A stretch of 59,671 nt of DNA, from positions 1-59,671 of the forward strand of contig NZ_KI912400.1 in the NCBI RefSeq assembly GCF_000518205.1, in the 5' to 3' direction. The position numbers and the translations under genes are program-made. Position 1 is the first letter of the stretch; each line of letters opens with the position of its first letter. Under the pieces are notes generated by a model that worked only from the letters and a program-made list of their open reading frames with translations, was not told where the DNA came from and ran no database searches. Source of the stretch: Hutsoniella sourekii ATCC 700629. GTDB lineage: Bacteria; Bacillota; Bacilli; Lactobacillales; Aerococcaceae. This document shows, in pieces, positions 18,434-57,767 of the stretch.

Positions 18434-18611
18434 ACCTATGGCCCAATTGGGGTCAATGATTATCCGTGGAGTTTCAGCACTATATAACGTAAACCAATGG
18501 TTAGCTACCTTAAGAAGGCCTTTGCGACTCTTCCTGTTATACCCGTTGGCGTCTCTGGACGTTCCTGGGCAGTAGCCTATGTTTATATAGGAGCCTCACC
18601 TAACTATCATT
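18434..18611 (-). promoter_or_regulatory. M-box (ykoK) magnesium riboswitch
   Basis: The minus strand begins GTTAGGTGAGGCTCC (18604-18590), followed by a CTACTGCCCAGGAACGTCC block and AGAGACGCCAACGGGT, the conserved core of the M-box. The 3' part TATAGTGCTGAAACTCCACGG is also typical. The transcript start predicted from the promoter is at the 5' end of the aptamer. High magnesium should favour the terminator downstream. Confidence 0.93.
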
Positions 18612-18617
18612 GGCTTG

Positions 18618-18702: not shown

Positions 18703-18980
18703 ACGATAAATGAATAGCAGAAGAGAAGAGTAGATATGAGGAAGGATTCAAGAGAGCCTGGTAGCTGAGAGCAGGTATCCTGATAAGTATTGAAGATGAA
18801 CTTGGAGCTGCTAAGTGGTGCAAGCTATTTAGCCGGTAGGATCCGTTACACGTCCACAGTATTGATAGATACTGGTAGAGCTATTTGCTGTGAAGTAAAT
18901 AGAAATTAGGGTGGTAGCACGCATATTAGCGTCCCTTTAAGTGCCTCGTAAGGTGCTTAAAGGGACTTTTTTTATTTATC
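18703..18980 (+). promoter_or_regulatory. T-box leader 1 (methionine-type)
   Basis: A complete T-box: stem I with the AGAGAGCCTGGTAGCTGAGA block, T-box sequence AGGGTGGTAGCACGC (18908-18922), and a 15-bp terminator stem (about 18932-18966) with T7. The likely specifier is ATG (18796-18798) in the context GAAGATG, as in the two other T-boxes of the window, so uncharged tRNA-Met should turn on the operon. The downstream MetQ-like gene agrees. Confidence 0.88.
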
Positions 18981-20662: not shown

Positions 20663-20668
20663 ACCTAA

Positions 20669-20742
20669 TAGGCAATGGTGGCGTCGTGAACGAGTCAGGA
20701 GCGGAAGCTAGCAGCTATAAGCGACTAAGCCATGTGCCCCTA
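20669..20742 (+). ncRNA. ffs: Small SRP RNA (4.5S-like)
   Basis: The SRP tip is clear: GAGTCAGG, AGC-GGAA-GCT tetraloop stem, AGCAGC (20692-20714). It is closed by GTCGT..GCGAC and by an outer GGCAATGG / CCATGTGCC helix (20671-20678 with 20730-20738). The short form lacks an Alu domain, as is usual in lactic acid bacteria. It has its own promoter and terminator and is on the same strand as dnaX, as in other Bacilli. Confidence 0.87.
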
Positions 20743-20753
20743 TAGCTTATTAC

Positions 20754-39690: not shown

Positions 39691-39808
39691 CTCTCCTTCT
39701 GATCAGAGAGCCAACAAGTTGGCAGCGAATGCGAAAGTAAACCGCGACATTCGTCTTCGTACCCAGGCAACATTCCATCCGGGGTCACTTAACGCTTACT
39801 TTCTACTC
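39691..39808 (-). promoter_or_regulatory. THF riboswitch of folT
   Basis: The minus strand has the THF core: GTAAGCGTTAAGTGACC, GGATGGAATGTTGCC, ACGAAGACGAATGTCGCGG (39800-39737). P1 pairs GAAAGTAA with TTACTTTC. Downstream, CTCTC (39710-39706) can pair with GAGAG (39695-39691), hiding the ribosome site, while GCCAAC..GTTGGC offers an alternative hairpin. This suggests translation control. Confidence 0.88.
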
Positions 39809-39928
39809 TGAATTTTTATTTTGCCATTAGTTTAGCTGATTAAGTACTAGTTGGCAATAGGCTATTAATCATTTTGCCATTAAAAAGTGGATTCAACTAG
39901 AAAGTATTAACCAGTTTCTCATTTTTTC

Positions 39929-39964: not shown

Positions 39965-40216
39965 TATATATGAAACGCTATGAGATGTTGAGTACATCCC
40001 CTTAGACCCTTAGAGAGCCTGCGCTTGGTGCAAGCAGGTGGCTAGTTGGATGGAAGATGGACATGGAGCGGTCAGCTAGAGGACCTAGTTGAACGGGTGA
40101 GCCCGTTAGGATCTAAGCCTATCTTTAAGATAGGTAGGAGGCATAATTTTTTATGCGAATAAAGGTGGTACCACGAAGTTAGACTCTCGTCCTTTTTATA
40201 AGGATGAGAGTATTTT
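39965..40216 (+). promoter_or_regulatory. T-box leader 2 (methionine-type) of metNI
   Basis: Stem I block AGAGAGCCTGCGCTTGGTGC, likely specifier ATG (40057-40059) in GAAGATG, T-box sequence AAGGTGGTACCACG (40162-40175), and terminator ACTCTCGTCCTT / AAGGATGAGAGT with ATTTTTG. It should sense uncharged tRNA-Met. Confidence 0.9.
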
Positions 40217-43328: not shown

Positions 43329-43357
43329 TTGACTTATGAAAAAAGTTAATATATGAT
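43329..43357 (+). promoter_or_regulatory. Promoter of T-box leader 3
   Basis: TTGACT (43329-43334), 17 bases, TATGAT (43352-43357), identical in form to the promoter of T-box 2. Confidence 0.85.
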
Positions 43358-43364
43358 TAGAAAC

Positions 43365-43700
43365 AAGTTAAGAAACAAACACATCGAAGTGGAAAGTAAC
43401 TTTGTTTACATTCTTAGAGAGCCTGCAGGTGGTGCAAGTAGGCAATGGACAGCAAAGTGAAAATGGCCACCGAGTGGCTGTTGTGAATGCCTCGGCAATA
43501 ACAACAGACGGACGCACCCGTTAGGAGTGACACGGTATGCAGTGCATCAGGAGCGAAGCTTAATAATTATCAAGCTCCCCCGATCAATGGATCGGCTAAG
43601 ACTAAGTACCGTAGGAGGCTATATTCAGTGATGATATAGCGAATAAAGGTGGTACCACGAAGTGATAAGCTCTCGTCCTTTCAGGATGAGAGTTTTTTTG
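43365..43700 (+). promoter_or_regulatory. T-box leader 3 (methionine-type) of metQ-metQ
   Basis: AGAGAGCCTGCAGGTGGTGC in stem I, likely specifier ATG (43463-43465) in GAAAATG, T-box sequence AAGGTGGTACCACG, and terminator CTCTCGTCCT / AGGATGAGAG with T7. It is longer than leaders 1 and 2, with additional hairpins between stem I and the antiterminator. Confidence 0.9.
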
Positions 43701-43784: not shown

Positions 43785-44651
43785 ATGATTAAATTCGTTC
43801 AAAAATTAAGTGTATTAACTTTAGCAGCTAGTTTATTGGTTGGTGGTGCTAGTCAAGCACAAGCTCAAGACAAGGAATTTGAAGGGCAAACGGTCACAGT
43901 AGGGATTGTATCTGGACCTGCAGAAGATGTCTGGAATGTGATTAAGGATAAGGCCGAACAAGAAGAAGGCATTAAGATTGAATTCGAATTATTTACTGAC
44001 TATAATCAACCTAATGTTGCCCTACAAAATGGCTCCATTGACCTCAATGCCTTCCAGCACGTTGCCTTCTTAGAAGATTGGAACGAAGCCAATGATGGTG
44101 ACTTGACGCCATTAGGTTATACCTTTGTATCGCCAATGGGTGCCTACTCAGAGAAGATTCAATCACTAGATGAATTAAAGGAAGGCGACACTATTGCTAT
44201 TCCTAATGATCCAACGAACGGTGGCCGTGCTATTCTTGCCTTAGAATTAGCAGGTAAGATCAAGGTTGACCCTTCTAAAGGGGCACTCGTAACGCCTGAA
44301 GATATCACAGAAAATCCACTTAACTTACAGATTGAAGAATTAGATGCCGCGCAATTAGCGATTTCACTACCGGATGTAGCAGCAGCCTTCATCAACTTAA
44401 ACTTCGCCACAGACGCTGGCTTGAAGTTGTCTGATGCAGTCTTCGTTGATGCGGACCACCCTGATCAGTTAAACGAGAAATATAAGAACGTCATTGCTTC
44501 TCGCGAAGAAGATAAGGATAACCCACTCTACCACAAGATTGTCGAACTCTATCAATCCCAAGAAGGGGCTCAAGCGATTTATGACTCAACCAATGGAGGT
44601 GATAAGCCTATTTGGGAAGATGCCCCAGTTATTACTTCTGCTAGTCACTAA
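43785..44651 (+). CDS. metQ: MetQ-family methionine-binding protein (copy 1), no lipobox
   Basis: 288 residues. The signal peptide ends in ASQAQAQDKEF with no cysteine, so it is not a lipoprotein. MetQ core: VTVGIVSGPAEDVWNVIK, LNAFQHVAFLEDW, AIPNDPTNGGRAILALE, TENPLNLQIEELDAAQ. It should deliver methionine to MetNI. It is followed 27 bases later by a close paralogue on the same T-box transcript. Confidence 0.9.
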   Translation: MIKFVQKLSVLTLAASLLVGGASQAQAQDKEFEGQTVTVGIVSGPAEDVWNVIKDKAEQEEGIKIEFELFTDYNQPNVALQNGSIDLNAFQHVAFLEDWNEANDGDLTPLGYTFVSPMGAYSEKIQSLDELKEGDTIAIPNDPTNGGRAILALELAGKIKVDPSKGALVTPEDITENPLNLQIEELDAAQLAISLPDVAAAFINLNFATDAGLKLSDAVFVDADHPDQLNEKYKNVIASREEDKDNPLYHKIVELYQSQEGAQAIYDSTNGGDKPIWEDAPVITSASH

Positions 44652-44678: not shown

Positions 44679-45623
44679 ATGAAAAAATTTATCCAATCAT
44701 TTGCTGTATTATCACTTGCGGCTAGTTTGTTTGCCGGTACTGGACAGGCTGTCCTAGCTCAAGATAAAGAATTCGAAGGTGAAAAAGTCACCATCGGTCT
44801 AGCAGCTGGTCCTGAAGAAGATGTCTGGGAAGTAGTCCAGAAGAAAGCCAAAGAAGAAGAAGGCATCGATATTGAATTTGAAGTGTTCACTGACTATAAT
44901 CCAATTAACACAGCTGTTGCTGACGGGTCTTTGGATTTGAACGCTTTCCAACATGAGGCCTTCTTAGATGAGTGGAATGAAGCTAACCAAGGTGACTTAA
45001 AGGTACTAGGTTATACTTATGTCTCTTCAATGGGCGCTTATTCAGAAACATTGGCTTCACTTGATGACCTACAAGATGGCGATAAGGTAGCTATTCCTAA
45101 TGACCCAACCAATGGTGGACGTGCCCTTCTGGCACTAGAACTAGCAGGGGTTATCAAGGTAGACCCATCTAAGGGAGTGCTAGTGACCCCTGAAGATATT
45201 ACAGACAATCCAAAAAACATTGAAATTGTCGAAGCAGATGCTGCTCAATTACCAGCCCTTCTACCAGACGTTGCTGCAGCAATCATCAACACAAACTTTG
45301 CGGTTGACGCAGGCCTAGACTTCCACTCTGCTATCTTTGTAGATGCTGAGTACCCAGAAAAACTAAATGACAAGTACAAGAACGTAGTGGCCGCTAAAGA
45401 AGAAAATGCAGACAATCCACTATTCAAGAAAGTAGTCGAACTCTACCAATCTGAAGAAGTGGCACAAGCCATCTACGATGCTTCAAACGGTGGCGACAAG
45501 CCAGCTTGGGACGGTGCGCCTCGCATTGAATCAGCTTCCAACGAAGAATCACAAGCCAGTGAAGATTCTCAAGACGCCCAAGATTCAGAAGCCGAAGCTT
45601 CAAGTGAAGAATCAGCAGCCTAA
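44679..45623 (+). CDS. MetQ-family methionine-binding protein (copy 2) with acidic Ser/Glu tail
   Basis: 314 residues. Signal peptide ends in AVLAQDKEF, again without cysteine. The core is like copy 1 (VTIGLAAGPEEDVWEVVQ, LNAFQHEAFLDEW, NDPTNGGRALLALE). The last 30 or so residues are Ser, Glu, Asp and Ala only, a tail that copy 1 lacks. Substrate preference may differ from copy 1. No terminator is seen before the Cys-rich leader ORF and cystine symporter, so these may share the transcript. Confidence 0.9.
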   Translation: MKKFIQSFAVLSLAASLFAGTGQAVLAQDKEFEGEKVTIGLAAGPEEDVWEVVQKKAKEEEGIDIEFEVFTDYNPINTAVADGSLDLNAFQHEAFLDEWNEANQGDLKVLGYTYVSSMGAYSETLASLDDLQDGDKVAIPNDPTNGGRALLALELAGVIKVDPSKGVLVTPEDITDNPKNIEIVEADAAQLPALLPDVAAAIINTNFAVDAGLDFHSAIFVDAEYPEKLNDKYKNVVAAKEENADNPLFKKVVELYQSEEVAQAIYDASNGGDKPAWDGAPRIESASNEESQASEDSQDAQDSEAEASSEESAA

Positions 45624-45668
45624 ATCAATTTGTTAGTAAAGAATCATTAATTAAAGGAGGTGAGGACA

Positions 45669-45824
45669 ATGTCTGGCGACTGTGCCTGTCCCTGTTACTG
45701 TTGGTTAGACCAGCTGTTAAATATAAGAGCGCATCAAGCGCATCAATTAAAGGAGAGTTTCTATGAATATATTAGCTTTAATCATTGTCCTAGCCCTCTT
45801 TGGTGTGATTTACCAATTATCTAA
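45669..45824 (+). CDS. Cysteine-rich leader peptide overlapping the tcyP start
   Basis: 51 codons after a near-perfect AAAGGAGGTGAGG site. The start reads MSGDCACPCYCW: four TGT codons within seven (45681-45701). A six-bp hairpin (GTTGGT-TAG-ACCAGC) begins at the fourth Cys codon, and a tandem nine-base repeat (GCGCATCAA, 45729-45746) follows. The frame continues across the tcyP ribosome site and start (45763) and stops at 45822-45824. Stalling at Cys codons would leave the tcyP start free, while full translation would cover it. This is inference; the sequence facts are direct. Confidence 0.72.
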   Translation: MSGDCACPCYCWLDQLLNIRAHQAHQLKESFYEYISFNHCPSPLWCDLPII

Positions 45825-50883: not shown

Positions 50884-53800
50884 ATGAAGTCACATTATCG
50901 ATTAGCCTTTATATTAGCGACAATGGCTGCCACAGGAGTGAGTCATGAGACCGTGCATGCTAGTGAGAATGACCCTACAAGTGAAAACAATGTTACTATT
51001 GAAAGTGGTGAATTATCAAATAATCTACCTAATACATTAGATACATTAGACCCGAGTGATAAGGATTCTTTGAATACGGAGGATACTTTACAGATATCTC
51101 AAGAAATTGAGCTTAATCAAGAAGAGCAAGCAATTTTGAATAAAGTGGAGCAAAATTTTGGTCTGGCTGTTGAAGAGACAGTAAATAATCTAAGAGAGCG
51201 TAATGGATTAAATAAATTAGAGCATAACGATCAACTACAAGTAGCTGCTGAAAAGTTAGTACAAGATAAACCTACAGGAGGTCAATTCTCTGAAGCCGTC
51301 CAAAGAGAATTGGGGGATAATCCTGAAATAGCTATAGCGGATCAACTAGGTAAAGAAAAAGCTAAAGATCTAGTAAGTAATGCACCGACTCATTTGTTGG
51401 ATCATTATTATGCAGAGCGATCTGGATTTAATACAAAGCAAGGGCAATACATAGCCGCTAATCATTTGCAAACAACATACATACTTAAAGATTTAGCAAG
51501 TAAAAATCTTGAGCAAGTTGTCCATGATATAATTAACCGTTGGTTTGTAGATTTAAGTGACCCTAATCACAATCACCGTAATCAAATGTTGGATCCTAAT
51601 TGGACACAAACAGCAGTAGGAGTGAAAATTAATCCTCTGATAAAAAGTGGCAATGTCCAAATAAATGAGATGTTAGACAAGTTAGACGTACCATTACTTC
51701 GAAAATTTAATATAGACATTAATAGTGCCTACGAGATTAATGTTACGCAGTATTTTGGAAAAACTAGGAAAGGAGATATCCCTTTCCATGAGATAGACAC
51801 ACCAATATCTCTTCCTACATTACCAATATATGTATATGAGCAAATTGGCAAAGAGGAAACGAATCCGAATACCAATAGTGCGAAGAAAATCATGGATAAA
51901 AAAGAGGCCGACGAAATACTAGGTGCATTTGAAATACCTCAATCAGATGGAGACAGTTTTCTAGAGATCCCTACTGATAACTGGAATAAAATGCTTGGCA
52001 TTAGTCTTTTAAACGATCAGAATCAGGATATCCTCCACAGACCTAAAGCATTAATTAATGCATATGTTAAATCAAAGATAAGCCCAACTTATCAGTTAGG
52101 TAGTAAGAATATTCTATCAATAAACTTTAACGGCAAGAATATTTACCAACAGCAGATATCCCGTCAAGCAGATCAATTTATTTTTTTACCCATTGACTAT
52201 GAAGAAAATCTAGATATCAATCGAAATTACGCAAAAGTATCGGAAAATGATTTTTCTAATTATAAGGAAGCCGAACAATCTGCTATTGATTTTTTAAAAA
52301 GTTCAAATGATTATCTAAATAATTACTTCTACCTAATTCAAACTAAGAGACAAAATATAGAGGGAGATCTCAGTTATTCTGTTCAATTTGCAGAGAAGAA
52401 ACCTCTCGATTTAACTAGTAAGATTTTCTTAGAAAGGTATGTTGGAAAATCCTTAGCGCCAAAAATTACATATGGAGAATTCGATACGGATGAGAAAAAA
52501 ATATCAGAACTTCAACGTCAAATTGAAAGTTTATTGCGTCCGATTAAAGGCCTCAAGGAAAATGACTATAAGATTATAGTTGACATCAAAGACAATCAAT
52601 TAACTGGATTTGTTAGGTTTAAACCGGATGTTCCTGTAGTTATTGAGAATAGACCTTTAAATGATCTGAATATAGCAGGGTATCCGTTCGATAGAGAAAC
52701 CAGACTAAAGAATTACATGAACATTAGTGATTCCGAGGGAATGATTAGGTACCTAGGAGATAGTCGAATTTTAAGTGAATTTGAGCTAATAAGTGCTTAT
52801 CAAGAGGACTTTCCTGTTCCAATGTTCTCCTCGAAACAAAGAGCTGAAAATTATATGAATGACATATTAAATGGCTTAGCTCTCTTACCTGAGTACTTGG
52901 CCAAAGTTTCACCACTAATTCATTCGAGGAATGATTTGGTGGGATATATTAAAGATCATTTTGGTTGGGTCGAGTCGGATGTCGAAAGTAGTGAAGATGT
53001 AGCAGGTACTTCCAAACCACATACCAAATATTACGCAGTGATTTATCCTAAGTTATGGTCCGAGTATAGAGACAGACGTTTTAAGAGTAGTGAAGAGGCT
53101 CATCAATTTGCTAGTGAAAGATTGTCAGGCTTCTTATGGTCTATAACTTACGATCCTACGACTTTTCCCGATCCCTTTGCTAATGAAAGTGACTCCAAGA
53201 GCTATCAGTGGATGATCCAGATAAATCCAGAACAATTATTTTGGTCTAAAGATGTAGCTGAAAGTAATCATAAGTTATTAACAAGTACTGATCCAAGGGT
53301 TTATGTTACAAGTAAAGATATTATCGAAGAATTCAAGAAAAGCCAAAATCCTCTAGTTAGAACTCCCGATAAGAAGGGTCTTCACCCTTATTTATTTATG
53401 TATCATTCAAGTGTCCCGTCAATGTATCACGTTTTCAAAATGGGTGATATGTATGTAACTCTTTCGCAAAACCTATGGGATTCAGGCCAGATGGTGCTAA
53501 AGGCATACGGCGATGAAAAATCTGCTATTCAAGCTGGGGAGAAATATTTAAGAGATCATCCAGATGCCTCATTTGATATTTTTAAATTTGAAGGTACTTA
53601 CTTTCTTAGTATTGGTCGTAATCGAATTGAGAGTCGTTGGTCACCGGACAACCTATCCTTTATCAATCGAACAGATGCTAAAAAATTTGCTGATTTTATC
53701 AGTAACCATCGAGACGTAAAAAAATTCGAATATGATATTGTCCCCATTCTTTCTGATGAAGGAACACCTTTCAGACAGGATAATTATCGAATTGTTACAC

Positions 53801-54477
53801 GGAAAATTTTATTTAAAGGTGATAGAACATCTCTCCACCTTATTCTTGAATATTTATATTCTGGGAACTCTGGAGTGGGTGGTCAGCATATTGAAACTAA
53901 GAATCAATTAAGAAAAATAGCAGATGAGCTCCGTCAAAAGAATGTTTCAATATCAAAGGTAGAGACTGATTATCAAAGAGAAGAAGAATTCGTAATTCAA
54001 GCTGCTAAACAAAGTGAATACTTAAAGCCGAGTATTGGAGGAAGTCCAGCTTACCCTTCTAATCAAGAGAGTCACGCCCCATTTACCCTAGCCGAAGATA
54101 ATCAATCTGTCTATCAGTTAGGGAGACTGCAAATCAAGTTAACGCCCCTAGGTTTATCTGAAGTGGTTCAAGTATTAATGGAAGATTATCTGGAAATCCA
54201 AGCTAAATTTAAGGAGAAGTTTGCTTACCTCTACAACATTCAACTCATCTTTAGCGATATTAGCCAGGAAGCGCTAAGTGAACCGGCTCGAGCTGAGATT
54301 CTACTTGAAGAGGGTCAAGAAGTCGACCAAGTCCTCCGCTATGATGTGGAAGAAGACCAGATTTTGGAAGAGTTAGACTTTGAAGTGATTGATGACTTTG
54401 ACAGTCAAGGAAGATTGGTGCGCAAGCTAATCTTTGAAGTTAGTGTATCTGGTTACTATGGTGTTGTAGTAAAATAA
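50884..54477 (+). CDS. Very large secreted CAP-like protein (paralogue 1)
   Basis: 1197 residues. Signal peptide of about 26 residues (MKSHYRLAFILATMAATG). About residues 75-300 resemble a divergent CAP domain: ETVNNLRERNGLNKLEHNDQ, NRWFVDLSDPNHNHRNQML, TAVGVKI and VTQYFG. The long middle has repeated alpha/beta segments but no named domain that I recognise. The last 110 residues form a beta-rich domain (KLTPLGLSEVVQVL, LRYDVEEDQ, VSGYYGVVVK) shared with its neighbours and reminiscent of the ZU5-like ends of surface proteins. There is no LPXTG. It is in the LytTR operon. Confidence 0.85.
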   Translation: MKSHYRLAFILATMAATGVSHETVHASENDPTSENNVTIESGELSNNLPNTLDTLDPSDKDSLNTEDTLQISQEIELNQEEQAILNKVEQNFGLAVEETVNNLRERNGLNKLEHNDQLQVAAEKLVQDKPTGGQFSEAVQRELGDNPEIAIADQLGKEKAKDLVSNAPTHLLDHYYAERSGFNTKQGQYIAANHLQTTYILKDLASKNLEQVVHDIINRWFVDLSDPNHNHRNQMLDPNWTQTAVGVKINPLIKSGNVQINEMLDKLDVPLLRKFNIDINSAYEINVTQYFGKTRKGDIPFHEIDTPISLPTLPIYVYEQIGKEETNPNTNSAKKIMDKKEADEILGAFEIPQSDGDSFLEIPTDNWNKMLGISLLNDQNQDILHRPKALINAYVKSKISPTYQLGSKNILSINFNGKNIYQQQISRQADQFIFLPIDYEENLDINRNYAKVSENDFSNYKEAEQSAIDFLKSSNDYLNNYFYLIQTKRQNIEGDLSYSVQFAEKKPLDLTSKIFLERYVGKSLAPKITYGEFDTDEKKISELQRQIESLLRPIKGLKENDYKIIVDIKDNQLTGFVRFKPDVPVVIENRPLNDLNIAGYPFDRETRLKNYMNISDSEGMIRYLGDSRILSEFELISAYQEDFPVPMFSSKQRAENYMNDILNGLALLPEYLAKVSPLIHSRNDLVGYIKDHFGWVESDVESSEDVAGTSKPHTKYYAVIYPKLWSEYRDRRFKSSEEAHQFASERLSGFLWSITYDPTTFPDPFANESDSKSYQWMIQINPEQLFWSKDVAESNHKLLTSTDPRVYVTSKDIIEEFKKSQNPLVRTPDKKGLHPYLFMYHSSVPSMYHVFKMGDMYVTLSQNLWDSGQMVLKAYGDEKSAIQAGEKYLRDHPDASFDIFKFEGTYFLSIGRNRIESRWSPDNLSFINRTDAKKFADFISNHRDVKKFEYDIVPILSDEGTPFRQDNYRIVTRKILFKGDRTSLHLILEYLYSGNSGVGGQHIETKNQLRKIADELRQKNVSISKVETDYQREEEFVIQAAKQSEYLKPSIGGSPAYPSNQESHAPFTLAEDNQSVYQLGRLQIKLTPLGLSEVVQVLMEDYLEIQAKFKEKFAYLYNIQLIFSDISQEALSEPARAEILLEEGQEVDQVLRYDVEEDQILEELDFEVIDDFDSQGRLVRKLIFEVSVSGYYGVVVK
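54319..54477 (+). repeat. 159-bp near-identical segment, copy 1
   Basis: Same DNA as 57609-57767 with six differences counted by eye. It encodes the last 52 residues of the shared C-terminal domain, whereas the upstream parts of the two genes differ far more. This suggests gene conversion or recent duplication of the end. Confidence 0.9.
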
Positions 54478-54518: not shown

Positions 54519-57500
54519 ATGAAATCACATTATCGACTAGCCTTTGTTTTAGCAATTTTAACAATGACCGGAATGGCAGCCGAAGATGTATTAGCCATGG
54601 AATCTGGAGCAGATTTAGAAACTTCAGTGAATCACCAGCCACAATCAGTTCAAGGAACTGTAGAAGAAGCACCTTCTGAAGCATTAAATATACCAGTAGC
54701 TGAAGGGGTAACACGGAGCCAACCAGTGGAAGTTTCTGCGACTGACTCAGAATCTGCGGAGAGTTCAATTGTTGAAGTCGCGAGCTTGCGAGTGGCAGAT
54801 GTTGAAGCTGAGCTTTCTTCAGCCATCCAGCATTCTGTCAATGAACTTCGAGCGCGTAATAATCAAGAAACATTACAAATAGATAGCCAACTTCAAGAAG
54901 CGGCTGACAAATTGGTAAAAACAGACCCTATTGGCAGTGAATCGGACCGAAAGGATCCGCATGCTAATGATGACCAATATGCTCGTCAAGCTGGTTTCCA
55001 GCAGTCCAACATTAGGCAAGAAGCCGTTCCGGTGGTGGCCAATCATGCCAAGGTAACTTATACTTTCGACCAAATTAGAGCTAGAAATTTTAAACAACTG
55101 GCGGATGATTTTGTTAATAAGTGGTTTTTGGATCTGAGTGATTCGAATAAGAATCACCGCAAACAACTATTGGTACCTGATTGGAATCTAACAGGTATTG
55201 GTGTTAGTATTACGCCTCGAATTATCGTTGAAGAAGTTAAGAGTGAGCATATGCTAGATAAATATCGCTTACTTGTTAACCAAGAATTGCAAGCAAAATT
55301 AATCGATGGGTTTGTTATTAGTGTGACCCAATACTTTGGTTCTAGCAGACCGATACAATCTACTCACGGTTTGGAAGAAGGAGTATCGTTAAATTCGTAT
55401 GATGCCTATGTTCTGAGTCAAGTTGGTGTGAAAGAATGGAATCCAAGCGAGGGCAAATTTACAGAACTGAGCGCTGGAGAAGCAAACCACATCTTAACTG
55501 AACAAAGAGAGCGGAACATAGGGGCGGTTACAAACTATCCAGCCTATCAAGAATCCAATCCCGAAGCTAAAGATTTTTTTGAAAGCTTACGAGCTAACCA
55601 GAATAATATCCTGTCAAATGATGTTCTGTCTCAGCTAGACAAGGAATTAGAACAAATCATCGACTGGCGCCATCACTATCAACCAGGCAGCCAAAACCTG
55701 CTATCCATTCTTTATAGTGAGGACGTTATTGGGCAAAGAAAAGTTGTCTATAAGGATGGCAAACTAGAATATCATGTTATTGACCGCGATTTACAAAGGG
55801 AAATTGATAATCGCTATTCAAGAATATCCAGTAATCTTTTCAATACCAAAGAAGATGCAGAAGCTTATGGTAAGACAGTCGTCGCAGAACTAGGTGAAGA
55901 AGATTACTATTATGACTTATGTTCGCATTACGGGGATGGAAATGTAGATCATTATTCTGTCTGGTTTAAACGCAAGCGTCCGTTAGATTTAACTAGTAAG
56001 ATAGGCTTCACCAAAGGTGAATTAGGAAAAGACGATTTGAAGAAATTTAAAAGTCTAAAATACACAATTGATTCAAATTCTAAGATAGTAATCAGTGAGG
56101 AAACACCTGTTATATATGAAGATTATCCATTGTTAAAACTGGATCGAGTTGGAACTAAAACTGGTGTGAAAGGTTTTATTAGTGCTTATTATTGGCTGAG
56201 AATCCTCCATGGTGCATCTTCAGAGTCAATACAAGCTGGTGAGTTAGTAAGTGCTTACCAAAGGAATCCAAACACTAAGATTTATGCTAATCAAGAAGAA
56301 GCTGAACAAGCAGCTGATTTAATGTTATCGAATTACGAGTATTTACCTGAATATGCCAAAGTTGCTTCGGAGCTTTTTAGCCCTGAACAATTAAAAAACG
56401 TAAAAACGAAGGATGATTATCTCAGATTATTCACGAGTTATATTGATCCATATAATTTTATCGTTATTTATCCGAAATACTGGGCTGAGTTGAGGGAATT
56501 AAAATTTCCAAGCATAAAATCTGCACATAATTTCATAAAAAACAATATAATTGAAGGTCTTGATGTTTATCTAGCAGTACATTCAGGTGGATACTATACT
56601 TTGATACTTGAAAATGAGCAAATCCTATTTACTAAAGAAGCTCGAATGGAGGCGATGGATTTAATTAAACCGAGTGTTCGTCCGATAGTAGTTTCAAAAA
56701 ATCCTCCTAGATATGGTGTTCCACATGTCTTTAAAATAGGCGAATTCTATTTCATCCAGGAGCGAGATGAATTCAATGATATCATACAGTCAAGAGTTGC
56801 TTACGGAAGTTTTGAAGAAGCGATGGAGGCCGGTCAAGCATACGTAGCTAGTCGCCCAGAATATGTTTACGATATCTTCCAAGTAGATGATTCTTATGTT
56901 GTCACCTATGGTAAGAATTTGGTAGAAAGTCGTTGGAATCCTGATCGGTTATCCTTTAATGACCGTGTAACGGCTCAGGAAATGGCGGAATACATTAGAT
57001 CTTTACCTGTCGTTAAGAAGTTTGATTATCAAATCGTTCCCAATGGTGGTTACGTTGGAAACTTCAAAATTCGTACAGATAGTATCGAATTTACTGATGA
57101 CTATAATGGTTATCTCCTCGTTCCTGCTTATCTTTTCTCTGGTAATGCAGGGGTGGATGGAGAACACTTCACAGGGGAGAATCAAATAGTGGATTTCTTT
57201 AGCCATCTTAGAAGGGAGAATCAACCGACCCCTAGTCAACAGGGAGTAGTCCTAGTACCGAGTGAGCGTCCAACGCTTGTTCCGGATGACGAGAATCGCA
57301 CGATTGTAGCTGTAGAATCAACCAATAATGTTGGATTGAACCCTAGGCCAACGATAGGAGCTAGTACACCAGATAGTCAAGCCCAGGGCGACTCATCTAT
57401 TTACCAACTGGGAAGTTTGCAAGTTAAGTTAACACCGTTAGGGCTGTCTGAAGTCGTCCAGGTCTTATTGGAAGACTACCGTGAAGTCCAAGATAAGTTT

Positions 57501-57767
57501 AAAGATAAATTTGCCTATCTTTATAATATTCAATTTGTCTTTGGCGATGTGAGTCAAGAAAGCTTAAGTGAACCAGCTCAGGCGGAAATTGTCCTGGCTG
57601 ATGGTGAAGAAGTCGACCAAGTCCTCCGCTATGACGTGGAAGAAGACCAGATCTTGGAAGAGTTAGACTTTGAAGTGATTGATGACTTTGACAGTCAAGG
57701 AAGATTGGTGCGCAAGCTAGTCTTTGAAGTTAGTGTATCTGGTTACTATGGTGTGGTATTAAAGTAA
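54519..57767 (+). CDS. Very large secreted CAP-like protein (paralogue 2)
   Basis: 1082 residues, 41 bases after its paralogue. Signal peptide MKSHYRLAFVLAILTMTG. The CAP-like region is at about 95-280: VNELRARNNQETLQIDSQL, NKWFLDLSDSNKNHRKQLL, TGIGVSITP, SVTQYFG. The middle aligns with paralogue 1 in blocks such as VESRWNPDRLSFNDR and LFSGNAGVDGEH. The C-terminal domain is nearly identical. No anchor motif. Function unknown; adhesins or wall-modifying factors are possible. A terminator closes the operon. Confidence 0.85.
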   Translation: MKSHYRLAFVLAILTMTGMAAEDVLAMESGADLETSVNHQPQSVQGTVEEAPSEALNIPVAEGVTRSQPVEVSATDSESAESSIVEVASLRVADVEAELSSAIQHSVNELRARNNQETLQIDSQLQEAADKLVKTDPIGSESDRKDPHANDDQYARQAGFQQSNIRQEAVPVVANHAKVTYTFDQIRARNFKQLADDFVNKWFLDLSDSNKNHRKQLLVPDWNLTGIGVSITPRIIVEEVKSEHMLDKYRLLVNQELQAKLIDGFVISVTQYFGSSRPIQSTHGLEEGVSLNSYDAYVLSQVGVKEWNPSEGKFTELSAGEANHILTEQRERNIGAVTNYPAYQESNPEAKDFFESLRANQNNILSNDVLSQLDKELEQIIDWRHHYQPGSQNLLSILYSEDVIGQRKVVYKDGKLEYHVIDRDLQREIDNRYSRISSNLFNTKEDAEAYGKTVVAELGEEDYYYDLCSHYGDGNVDHYSVWFKRKRPLDLTSKIGFTKGELGKDDLKKFKSLKYTIDSNSKIVISEETPVIYEDYPLLKLDRVGTKTGVKGFISAYYWLRILHGASSESIQAGELVSAYQRNPNTKIYANQEEAEQAADLMLSNYEYLPEYAKVASELFSPEQLKNVKTKDDYLRLFTSYIDPYNFIVIYPKYWAELRELKFPSIKSAHNFIKNNIIEGLDVYLAVHSGGYYTLILENEQILFTKEARMEAMDLIKPSVRPIVVSKNPPRYGVPHVFKIGEFYFIQERDEFNDIIQSRVAYGSFEEAMEAGQAYVASRPEYVYDIFQVDDSYVVTYGKNLVESRWNPDRLSFNDRVTAQEMAEYIRSLPVVKKFDYQIVPNGGYVGNFKIRTDSIEFTDDYNGYLLVPAYLFSGNAGVDGEHFTGENQIVDFFSHLRRENQPTPSQQGVVLVPSERPTLVPDDENRTIVAVESTNNVGLNPRPTIGASTPDSQAQGDSSIYQLGSLQVKLTPLGLSEVVQVLLEDYREVQDKFKDKFAYLYNIQFVFGDVSQESLSEPAQAEIVLADGEEVDQVLRYDVEEDQILEELDFEVIDDFDSQGRLVRKLVFEVSVSGYYGVVLK
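57609..57767 (+). repeat. 159-bp near-identical segment, copy 2
   Basis: Partner of 54319-54477; see there. Confidence 0.9.

Follow-up and report, generated by a model that had tools for sequence, protein, structure and literature searches.

The window analysed here, a stretch of 59,671 nucleotides at the start of contig NZ_KI912400.1 of Hutsoniella sourekii ATCC 700629, carries on its forward strand a T-box, two metQ-like genes, a short cysteine-rich open reading frame (ORF) and an SDF-family symporter gene, in that order (Table 1). In the alignment of the T-box, the specifier was read by eye as AUG (GAA-A-AUG-G; GAAAAUGG) and the antiterminator is GGUGGUACC with a UGGU bulge; fold, specifier and bulge are those of a Met-type T-box. 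The position of the cysteine-rich ORF behind this T-box and the two metQ-like genes is a context that the initial annotation of the locus did not describe.

Table 1. Position and identification of the features around the leader ORF (window coordinates).
Feature	Position	Strand	Basis
Promoter-like site TTGACT-17-TATGAT, upstream of the T-box	43329..43357	+	Consensus scan, 10/12
T-box leader, read as Met-specific	43375..43683	+	Rfam RF00230, 124.5 bits; specifier by eye
metQ-like substrate-binding lipoprotein 1	43785..44651	+	TIGR00363 and MetQ models, below curated cut-offs
metQ-like substrate-binding lipoprotein 2	44679..45623	+	TIGR00363 and MetQ models, below curated cut-offs
Predicted long-range helix, 5' arm: leader ribosome site and start codon	45650..45671	+	Folding
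Leader Shine-Dalgarno AAAGGAGGTGA	45653..45663	+	Sequence
Cys-codon leader ORF, 51 codons	45669..45824	+	Sequence, rarity scans
Cys tract, TGT at codons 5, 7, 9 and 11	45681..45701	+	Sequence
Symporter Shine-Dalgarno AAAGGAG, within the leader ORF	45749..45755	+	Sequence
SDF-family symporter, 439 aa	45763..47082	+	PF00375, E 3.7e-96
Predicted long-range helix, 3' arm: symporter codons 7-15, in the overlap	45783..45807	+	Folding

The scan for terminator-like sites found none between the second metQ-like gene and the symporter. Promoter-like sites were scored by consensus match only, and their number (eight, against a shuffle mean of 7.7) is at chance level; two matches fall inside the metQ genes, and none was found near the leader that could serve as its own promoter. 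The simplest reading is that of one operon, presumably opened on methionine shortage, in which the leader would be an added, cysteine-specific control of the last gene. Elsewhere in the window, two further T-boxes (18711-18939 and 39971-40197, both on the forward strand) also have specifiers that read AUG (Met). An M-box (18452-18614) and a THF riboswitch (39721-39812) lie on the reverse strand and a small SRP RNA (20664-20750) on the forward strand. Two long tandem ORFs (50884-54477 and 54519-57767, forward strand) have N- and C-terminal sequences in common and are apparently paralogs.

The leader ORF (translation MSGDCACPCYCWLDQLLNIRAHQAHQLKESFYEYISFNHCPSPLWCDLPII) starts with the ATG at 45669 and ends with the stop codon at 45822-45824. 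Its Shine-Dalgarno (SD) sequence has a GGAGG core at 45656-45660 and a spacer of 8 nt, and the TGT codons, at 45681, 45687, 45693 and 45699, give a regular cysteine spacing, CACPCYC. The last 62 bases overlap the symporter coding sequence in a different frame; the SD of the symporter has a spacer of 7 nt. The initial annotation had described a 51-codon ORF with a strong ribosome site and early TGT codons, which crosses the ribosome site of the next gene and enters its coding sequence, and the sequence bears out both statements.

Such an ORF is rare. A rule demanding an SD, a start codon, at most 100 codons and at least four Cys within 12 codons has a single match on both strands of the window, the leader ORF itself. 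A larger sample of the same genome (518,554 strand bases: the window and ten stretches amounting to 199.6 kb) holds 911 short SD-ORFs, among which the leader ORF alone has four Cys in 12 codons, and ten others have three. As in amino-acid-sensing leader peptides, it has a ribosome site of its own upstream of a gene and is enriched in codons for one amino acid (four Cys within codons 5-11). The regular spacing would also suit a real CxCxCxC peptide that binds metal or reports on redox state, whether the protein itself acts or its stalling depends on metal or redox state. We consider this very unlikely, as the Cys runs in the leaders of homologs vary in spacing and the ORF has no match at E 0.001 among the Pfam and NCBIfam models.

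The downstream gene had been called tcyP. Its SDF nature stands, its closeness to TcyP is doubtful: identity is 29-32% to family members of roughly 470 aa, which we take to be TcyP-like, and 53-66% within a small clade. No NCBIfam cut-off is reached by the symporter, and neither it nor the type of about 470 aa has a match named TcyP in this library, which may have no such model. Judged by sequence, the protein belongs to a rare SDF clade, for which 'tcyP' is a loose name. Among the 76 genomes of its own family, 15 carry the clade at E 1e-100 or better, at 16 places in all, the window symporter included; across the order, it occurs in 15 of 395 genomes drawn, all of them Aerococcaceae. Searching named genomes by motif brought up 79 homologs, which fall into Aerococcaceae, Finegoldia/Anaerococcus and kin, Clostridia and others, Erysipelotrichia and Bifidobacteriaceae. 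Homolog loci are given L-numbers below; L008/L037, L015/L044, L079/L124 and L090/L126 each denote the same locus, and L120 is L058. The substrate is probably cyst(e)ine, as suggested by the Cys leaders of homologs and by T-boxes read as Cys.

The leader ORF is absent from the upstream regions of all 15 other Aerococcaceae orthologs. Conservation of the Cys codons, proposed as a check by the initial annotation, thus fails in the nearest orthologs, and what recurs at more distant homologs is the device: the conservation evidence concerns leaders at homologous genes, not the window ORF. Within the family, L013 has a Met T-box, a terminator, a promoter-like TTGACA-17-TAGAAT and then a separate SD-ORF, MAEICCWSMALYR, which we read as methionine plus cysteine again, differently built than in the window. 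L018 has a weak leader candidate ending in CDC. In L008 and L009, Cys-bearing frames overlap the symporter start on the SD of the symporter itself, the one of L009 reading CRCYC. Together with the overlapping frame of L058, they are read as by-products of the hydrophobic, Val/Leu-rich symporter codons, even if those of L008 and L009 could be parallels to the window leader. ORFs with at least two Cys in L008, L010, L016, L017 and L019 were set aside by judgement, having no good SD or lying far upstream; the one in L017 has four Cys. In L016 (reverse strand), the sequence SD-ATG TCT AAA TGA TGT has a Cys-bearing open frame after the TGA, and L059 has TGT TGA just upstream of the symporter where L112 has TGT TGT. 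These TGA codons, beside or instead of a Cys codon, are read as ordinary stops.

Short direct repeats surround the leader start, 45603-45614 with 45635-45646 and 45645-45659 with 45741-45755. The second pair (15 nt, 93%) links part of the leader SD region to the ribosome site of the symporter, and the flanking repeats, this copy included, are perhaps how the leader arose. An origin of the Cys tract from a duplicated symporter 5' end was rejected, the repeat being limited to the ribosome site. Similarity of the leader to the 5' ends of two relatives (148 of 300 shuffles as good for L006, 2 of 300 for L010) is read as low-complexity similarity.

The repeat also raises the question of whether the ORF is a mere accident, a functionless Cys-rich frame beside purine-rich sequence that stems from a duplicated symporter ribosome site. 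Frame 3 of the tract encodes a Leu-rich stretch, VWRLCLSLLLLV, and a shifted frame yields TGT codons; similar, accidental Cys runs are present in shifted frames at the coding starts of L008, L009 and, by eye, L010. The lack of conservation in the nearest orthologs points the same way. On the other side, the body of the leader is not similar to the 5' end of its own symporter (214 of 500 shuffles as good), and a frame found once among 911 stands before a gene whose homologs repeatedly carry Cys leaders. We regard an accident as improbable.

T-boxes are the other sensors found at these homologs. Those of L011, L012 and L013 read AUG. Those of L008/L037 and L015/L044, partly below the Rfam gathering score, have the antiterminator GGUGGAACC and the specifier region GAAGUUGCG. 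About 200-420 bases 5' of the symporter, both loci show tandem antiterminator motifs, each GGUGGAACC, the second of which aligns with no more than the 3' portion of the Rfam model. The UGGA of this antiterminator presumably fits U73 of tRNA-Cys. Furthermore, AGTGGAACC occurs in the Cys T-box motif of Clostridium perfringens, as far as the accessible part of that report describes it (PMC2940859). On these two grounds, the T-boxes of L008 and L015 appear Cys-specific, a reading that is not certain, since a strict position could also give the specifier UUG. For L052 (Anaerococcus), a T-box reading UGC with GGUGGAAAC was recognized by eye only. Six cysS loci, examined as a control for Cys T-boxes, contained no T-box motif.

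Before the homologs of Clostridia and Erysipelotrichia, Cys leaders recur, for example MKSKFKSKQKNHNKDSFMCCSCCCCCNS in L055, MNFVLELQLRNNFRIGRCCCCFFNKE in L094, MLEKSERRINLMRCC in L092 and MNRRMCCQTKTK in L112. They were counted as SD-ORFs containing Cys-Cys and starting between -400 and -15 from the symporter, in 77 loci (the 79 without L109 and L111, which have no upstream sequence; 76 in the second control, also without L107). Seventeen of the 77 homologs have such an ORF, against none of 77 on the reverse complement and one of 76 further upstream. The matches come from 'Clostridia and others' (13/25), Erysipelotrichia (3/5) and Aerococcaceae (1/12), with none among 28 homologs of Bifidobacteriaceae and seven of Tissierellia; the sole match in Aerococcaceae, L040, is probably due to chance. 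The window leader itself escapes this rule, as it has CxCxCxC without CC and its end lies inside the gene. The dense-Cys rule used for the window gives 11 matches in the 35 kb, single strand, directly before the 79 homologs (one of the 11 being the overlapping frame of L058, which was set aside) and 10 in the remainder of the same loci, about 1.06 Mb on both strands. This comparison supports the idea of the initial annotation that the leader senses cysteine on behalf of a cyst(e)ine importer: 16 of the 30 homologs of the Clostridia type and of Erysipelotrichia have Cys-Cys SD-ORFs, and other orthologs have T-boxes read as Cys.

The transporter itself is scattered within families. In the family of L094, it is present in 8 of 43 genomes at 1e-100, and six of the eight loci have SD-ORFs that differ from each other and keep at least one Cys late in the peptide (a single late one in L079/L124 and L090/L126); L128 and L129 lack one. 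The family of L069 has the transporter in 7 of 299 genomes; there, a Cys leader is present in L069, L055 and L117 and missing from L118, L119 and L121, and L120 was set aside. In the family of L112, only the genome of L112 itself, out of 247, has the transporter.

The leaders of the distant homologs also differ in their surroundings. Canonical terminators follow the leaders of L070 and L073, which are preceded by 12/12 promoters. L076 has a 12/12 promoter and no terminator in the scan, and L054 has no terminator in the scan on the leader strand; in both, a hairpin is visible by eye. Between promoter-like sequence and leader, similar AT-rich stretches were seen by eye in the group of L055, L056, L060 and L069 (AACATATATGAATA-like) and in that of L079, L090, L092 and L094 (ATCATACTA..TAGTAGGAAA-like), and these are possible operators. 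In some Lachnospiraceae leaders, the Cys run reads TGT-TGC-TCC-TG (TGC-TGC-TCC-TG in L065), whose CTCC can pair with the SD of the symporter. L055, L056, L060, L065 and L069 all use TCC for the first Ser codon in the Cys run, which creates the CTCC block; the codon may be kept for this RNA pairing. The pairing tests are mixed. Out of 300 shuffled Cys tracts, those that pair as well with the symporter ribosome site number 3 for L125, 9 for L092, 16 for L094 and 22 for L060; the values are 29 for L018, 31 for L056, 64 for L065, 85 for L069, 115 for L076, 130 for L090, 179 for L055, 215 for L112 and 243 for L013. For L092 and L090, a ribosome stalled at the Cys codons and one at the stop codon were not told apart by the folding model.

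In the window, the pairing between Cys tract and symporter ribosome site is nothing special (219 of 300 shuffles as good), and the modelled accessibility of the symporter SD goes from 0.40 without a ribosome to 0.33 with a ribosome stalled at codon 5. Unmasking of the SD by the Cys tract is not supported and, in view of this ordinary pairing and of the lack of a rise in access on stalling, is not a likely mode of action. With no terminator-like site either, the marks of a classical attenuator are missing from the window. The partly paired state of the symporter SD region in the model, at 0.40 unpaired, would leave room for translational coupling, in which leader translation either opens the ribosome site of the symporter or lets ribosomes re-initiate there, to the benefit of symporter translation. 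In the cases covered by the available text (PMC4833913), the distance between leader stop and next start for which re-initiation was proposed is about 10-16 bp, whereas the leader stop of the window lies 62 bases past the symporter start. Re-initiation is unlikely with so long an overlap, and we give coupling as a whole very little credit.

Folding revealed a feature that the initial annotation did not mention: the ribosome site of the leader can pair with early symporter codons (Table 1). The predicted duplex, at -24.6 kcal/mol, is the strongest of 175 gene starts in the sample of the same genome, itself included (next -20.6, mean -11.3, sd 3.0). A helix as strong is reached by 43 of 2000 synonymous versions and by 1 of 300 shuffles, the whole fold has a z of -2.0 (8 of 200 shuffles as good), and the arms coincide with the inverted repeat I1 (79% over 19 nt). 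This predicted helix was found after folding, not in a blind test, and is a lead rather than a result. In 13 other leader loci, no comparably strong equivalent was found (best z -1.2).

Such a helix could make the locus a switch between alternative pairings. The leader would still sense cysteine, and ribosomes on either the leader or the symporter would hold the 3' arm open; once leader traffic stalls, the arm would shut the leader start and the symporter would be used alone. The strength of the duplex, the shuffle values of the whole fold and the inverted repeat speak for this switch. The post hoc discovery of the helix, the lack of a counterpart at the other leaders and the nearly constant modelled access of the symporter SD speak against it, and we think it unlikely.

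Altogether, the ORF is quite probably a Cys-sensing leader, in one mode or another. With SD masking and re-initiation set aside, ribosome traffic is what remains. The leader peptide would gauge charged Cys-tRNA and set the translation of the SDF symporter. The Met T-box would open transcription of metQ-metQ-leader-symporter, and ribosomes would initiate at the strong leader site. With ample cysteine, they would cross codons 27-51 repeatedly, over the ribosome site and start of the symporter, and symporter initiation would be low. When Cys-tRNA is short, a ribosome would halt within codons 5-11, with 50-68 bases left to the SD of the symporter, and crowd the leader start; leader traffic would end and the symporter start would be free.

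Occlusion of the symporter start by leader ribosomes, the mechanism first suggested for this overlap, is plausible, if unproven. The geometry agrees with it, as does the absence of SD masking by the Cys tract; clear comparative support is missing, the leader ORF being present in 0 of 15 Aerococcaceae orthologs and the overlapping design having been seen only once. Elongating ribosomes clear a site quickly. For this reason, occlusion alone may have a modest effect, by estimate and not by computation. That occlusion is the main mode is tentative, somewhat short of an even chance, and we hold the whole explanation, from the Met T-box operon to the Cys-tRNA-gauging leader and occlusion by ribosome traffic, with a similar reserve. 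An extended version, which we consider doubtful, would make the locus a gate for two amino acids: the Met T-box opens the transcript, and the overlapping Cys leader picks between the leader start and the symporter start, used in a mutually exclusive way. An idle leader start would then be locked by symporter codons and re-armed by symporter translation, the control resting on traffic, not on a terminator or SD masking.

If occlusion by leader traffic is true, Lactobacillales would possess a Cys-sensing leader that acts by overlap with the start it controls and, lying behind a Met T-box, lets one transcript read two sulfur amino acids. Of equal weight is a wider result: a rare SDF symporter clade carries sensors that are built differently by lineage, namely T-boxes with a Cys or Met reading, leaders with a Cys run and possible SD masking, Cys leaders with a terminator behind them, and the overlapping leader. 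This variety points to a likely substrate for the clade and offers a natural series for the comparison of attenuator mechanisms. Titles on Cys leaders upstream of Bacillota symporters were absent from the literature matches listed, in which subscription journals are thinly covered, and an earlier description is possible.

Known systems resemble the window leader in part. Polycysteine leaderless short ORFs of mycobacteria were reportedly described by Canestrari in 2020. They are called leaderless, whereas the window leader has a strong SD and a 62-base overlap and comes from another phylum; it has neither the leaderless start nor the Cys run near the stop. In Actinobacteria, Cys leaders have been predicted before cys operons (Mycobacterium, P. 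acnes) and cbs (B. longum) (PMC1262725). In the portion of that paper available, they are similar in that a short ORF with Cys codons precedes genes of Cys metabolism and no terminator is conserved, and different in that their Cys run is near the stop codon, while the Cys codons of the window leader are early and spaced (5-11 of 51). The uORFC-8-2 motif before cysS in Rhodobacterales also has Cys codons in a uORF and is a proposed sensor of Cys-tRNA charging; by the accessible text, its tandem Cys codons are usually at positions 14-15 and it has an intrinsic terminator, unlike the window (PMC8632094).

Within Firmicutes, CysP1 and CysP2 of C. perfringens are, by the available description, symporters with limited TcyP similarity as well, 7.0- and 15.5-fold up under Cys depletion, and controlled by a Cys T-box instead of a leader ORF (PMC2940859). 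The His leader peptides of bacilli are likewise Firmicutes leader peptides in place of a T-box; they have His codons and, according to the part of the source at hand, were found through premature terminators (PMC2965389). In Staphylococcus aureus, the rbfL leader is a precedent for an overlapping leader that can block the ribosome site behind it. Like the window ORF, this uORF overlaps the SD of the next gene, whose accessibility depends on amino-acid supply; the rbfL leader has Arg codons and eight codons in all, and, in the accessible account, pausing blocks the next gene, which is the opposite sign to the one proposed here (PMC13009471). The window ORF would work like an amino-acid leader peptide and, by the tests applied in this study, is neither an attenuator of the terminator or SD-masking kind nor a leaderless polycysteine ORF of the mycobacterial kind.
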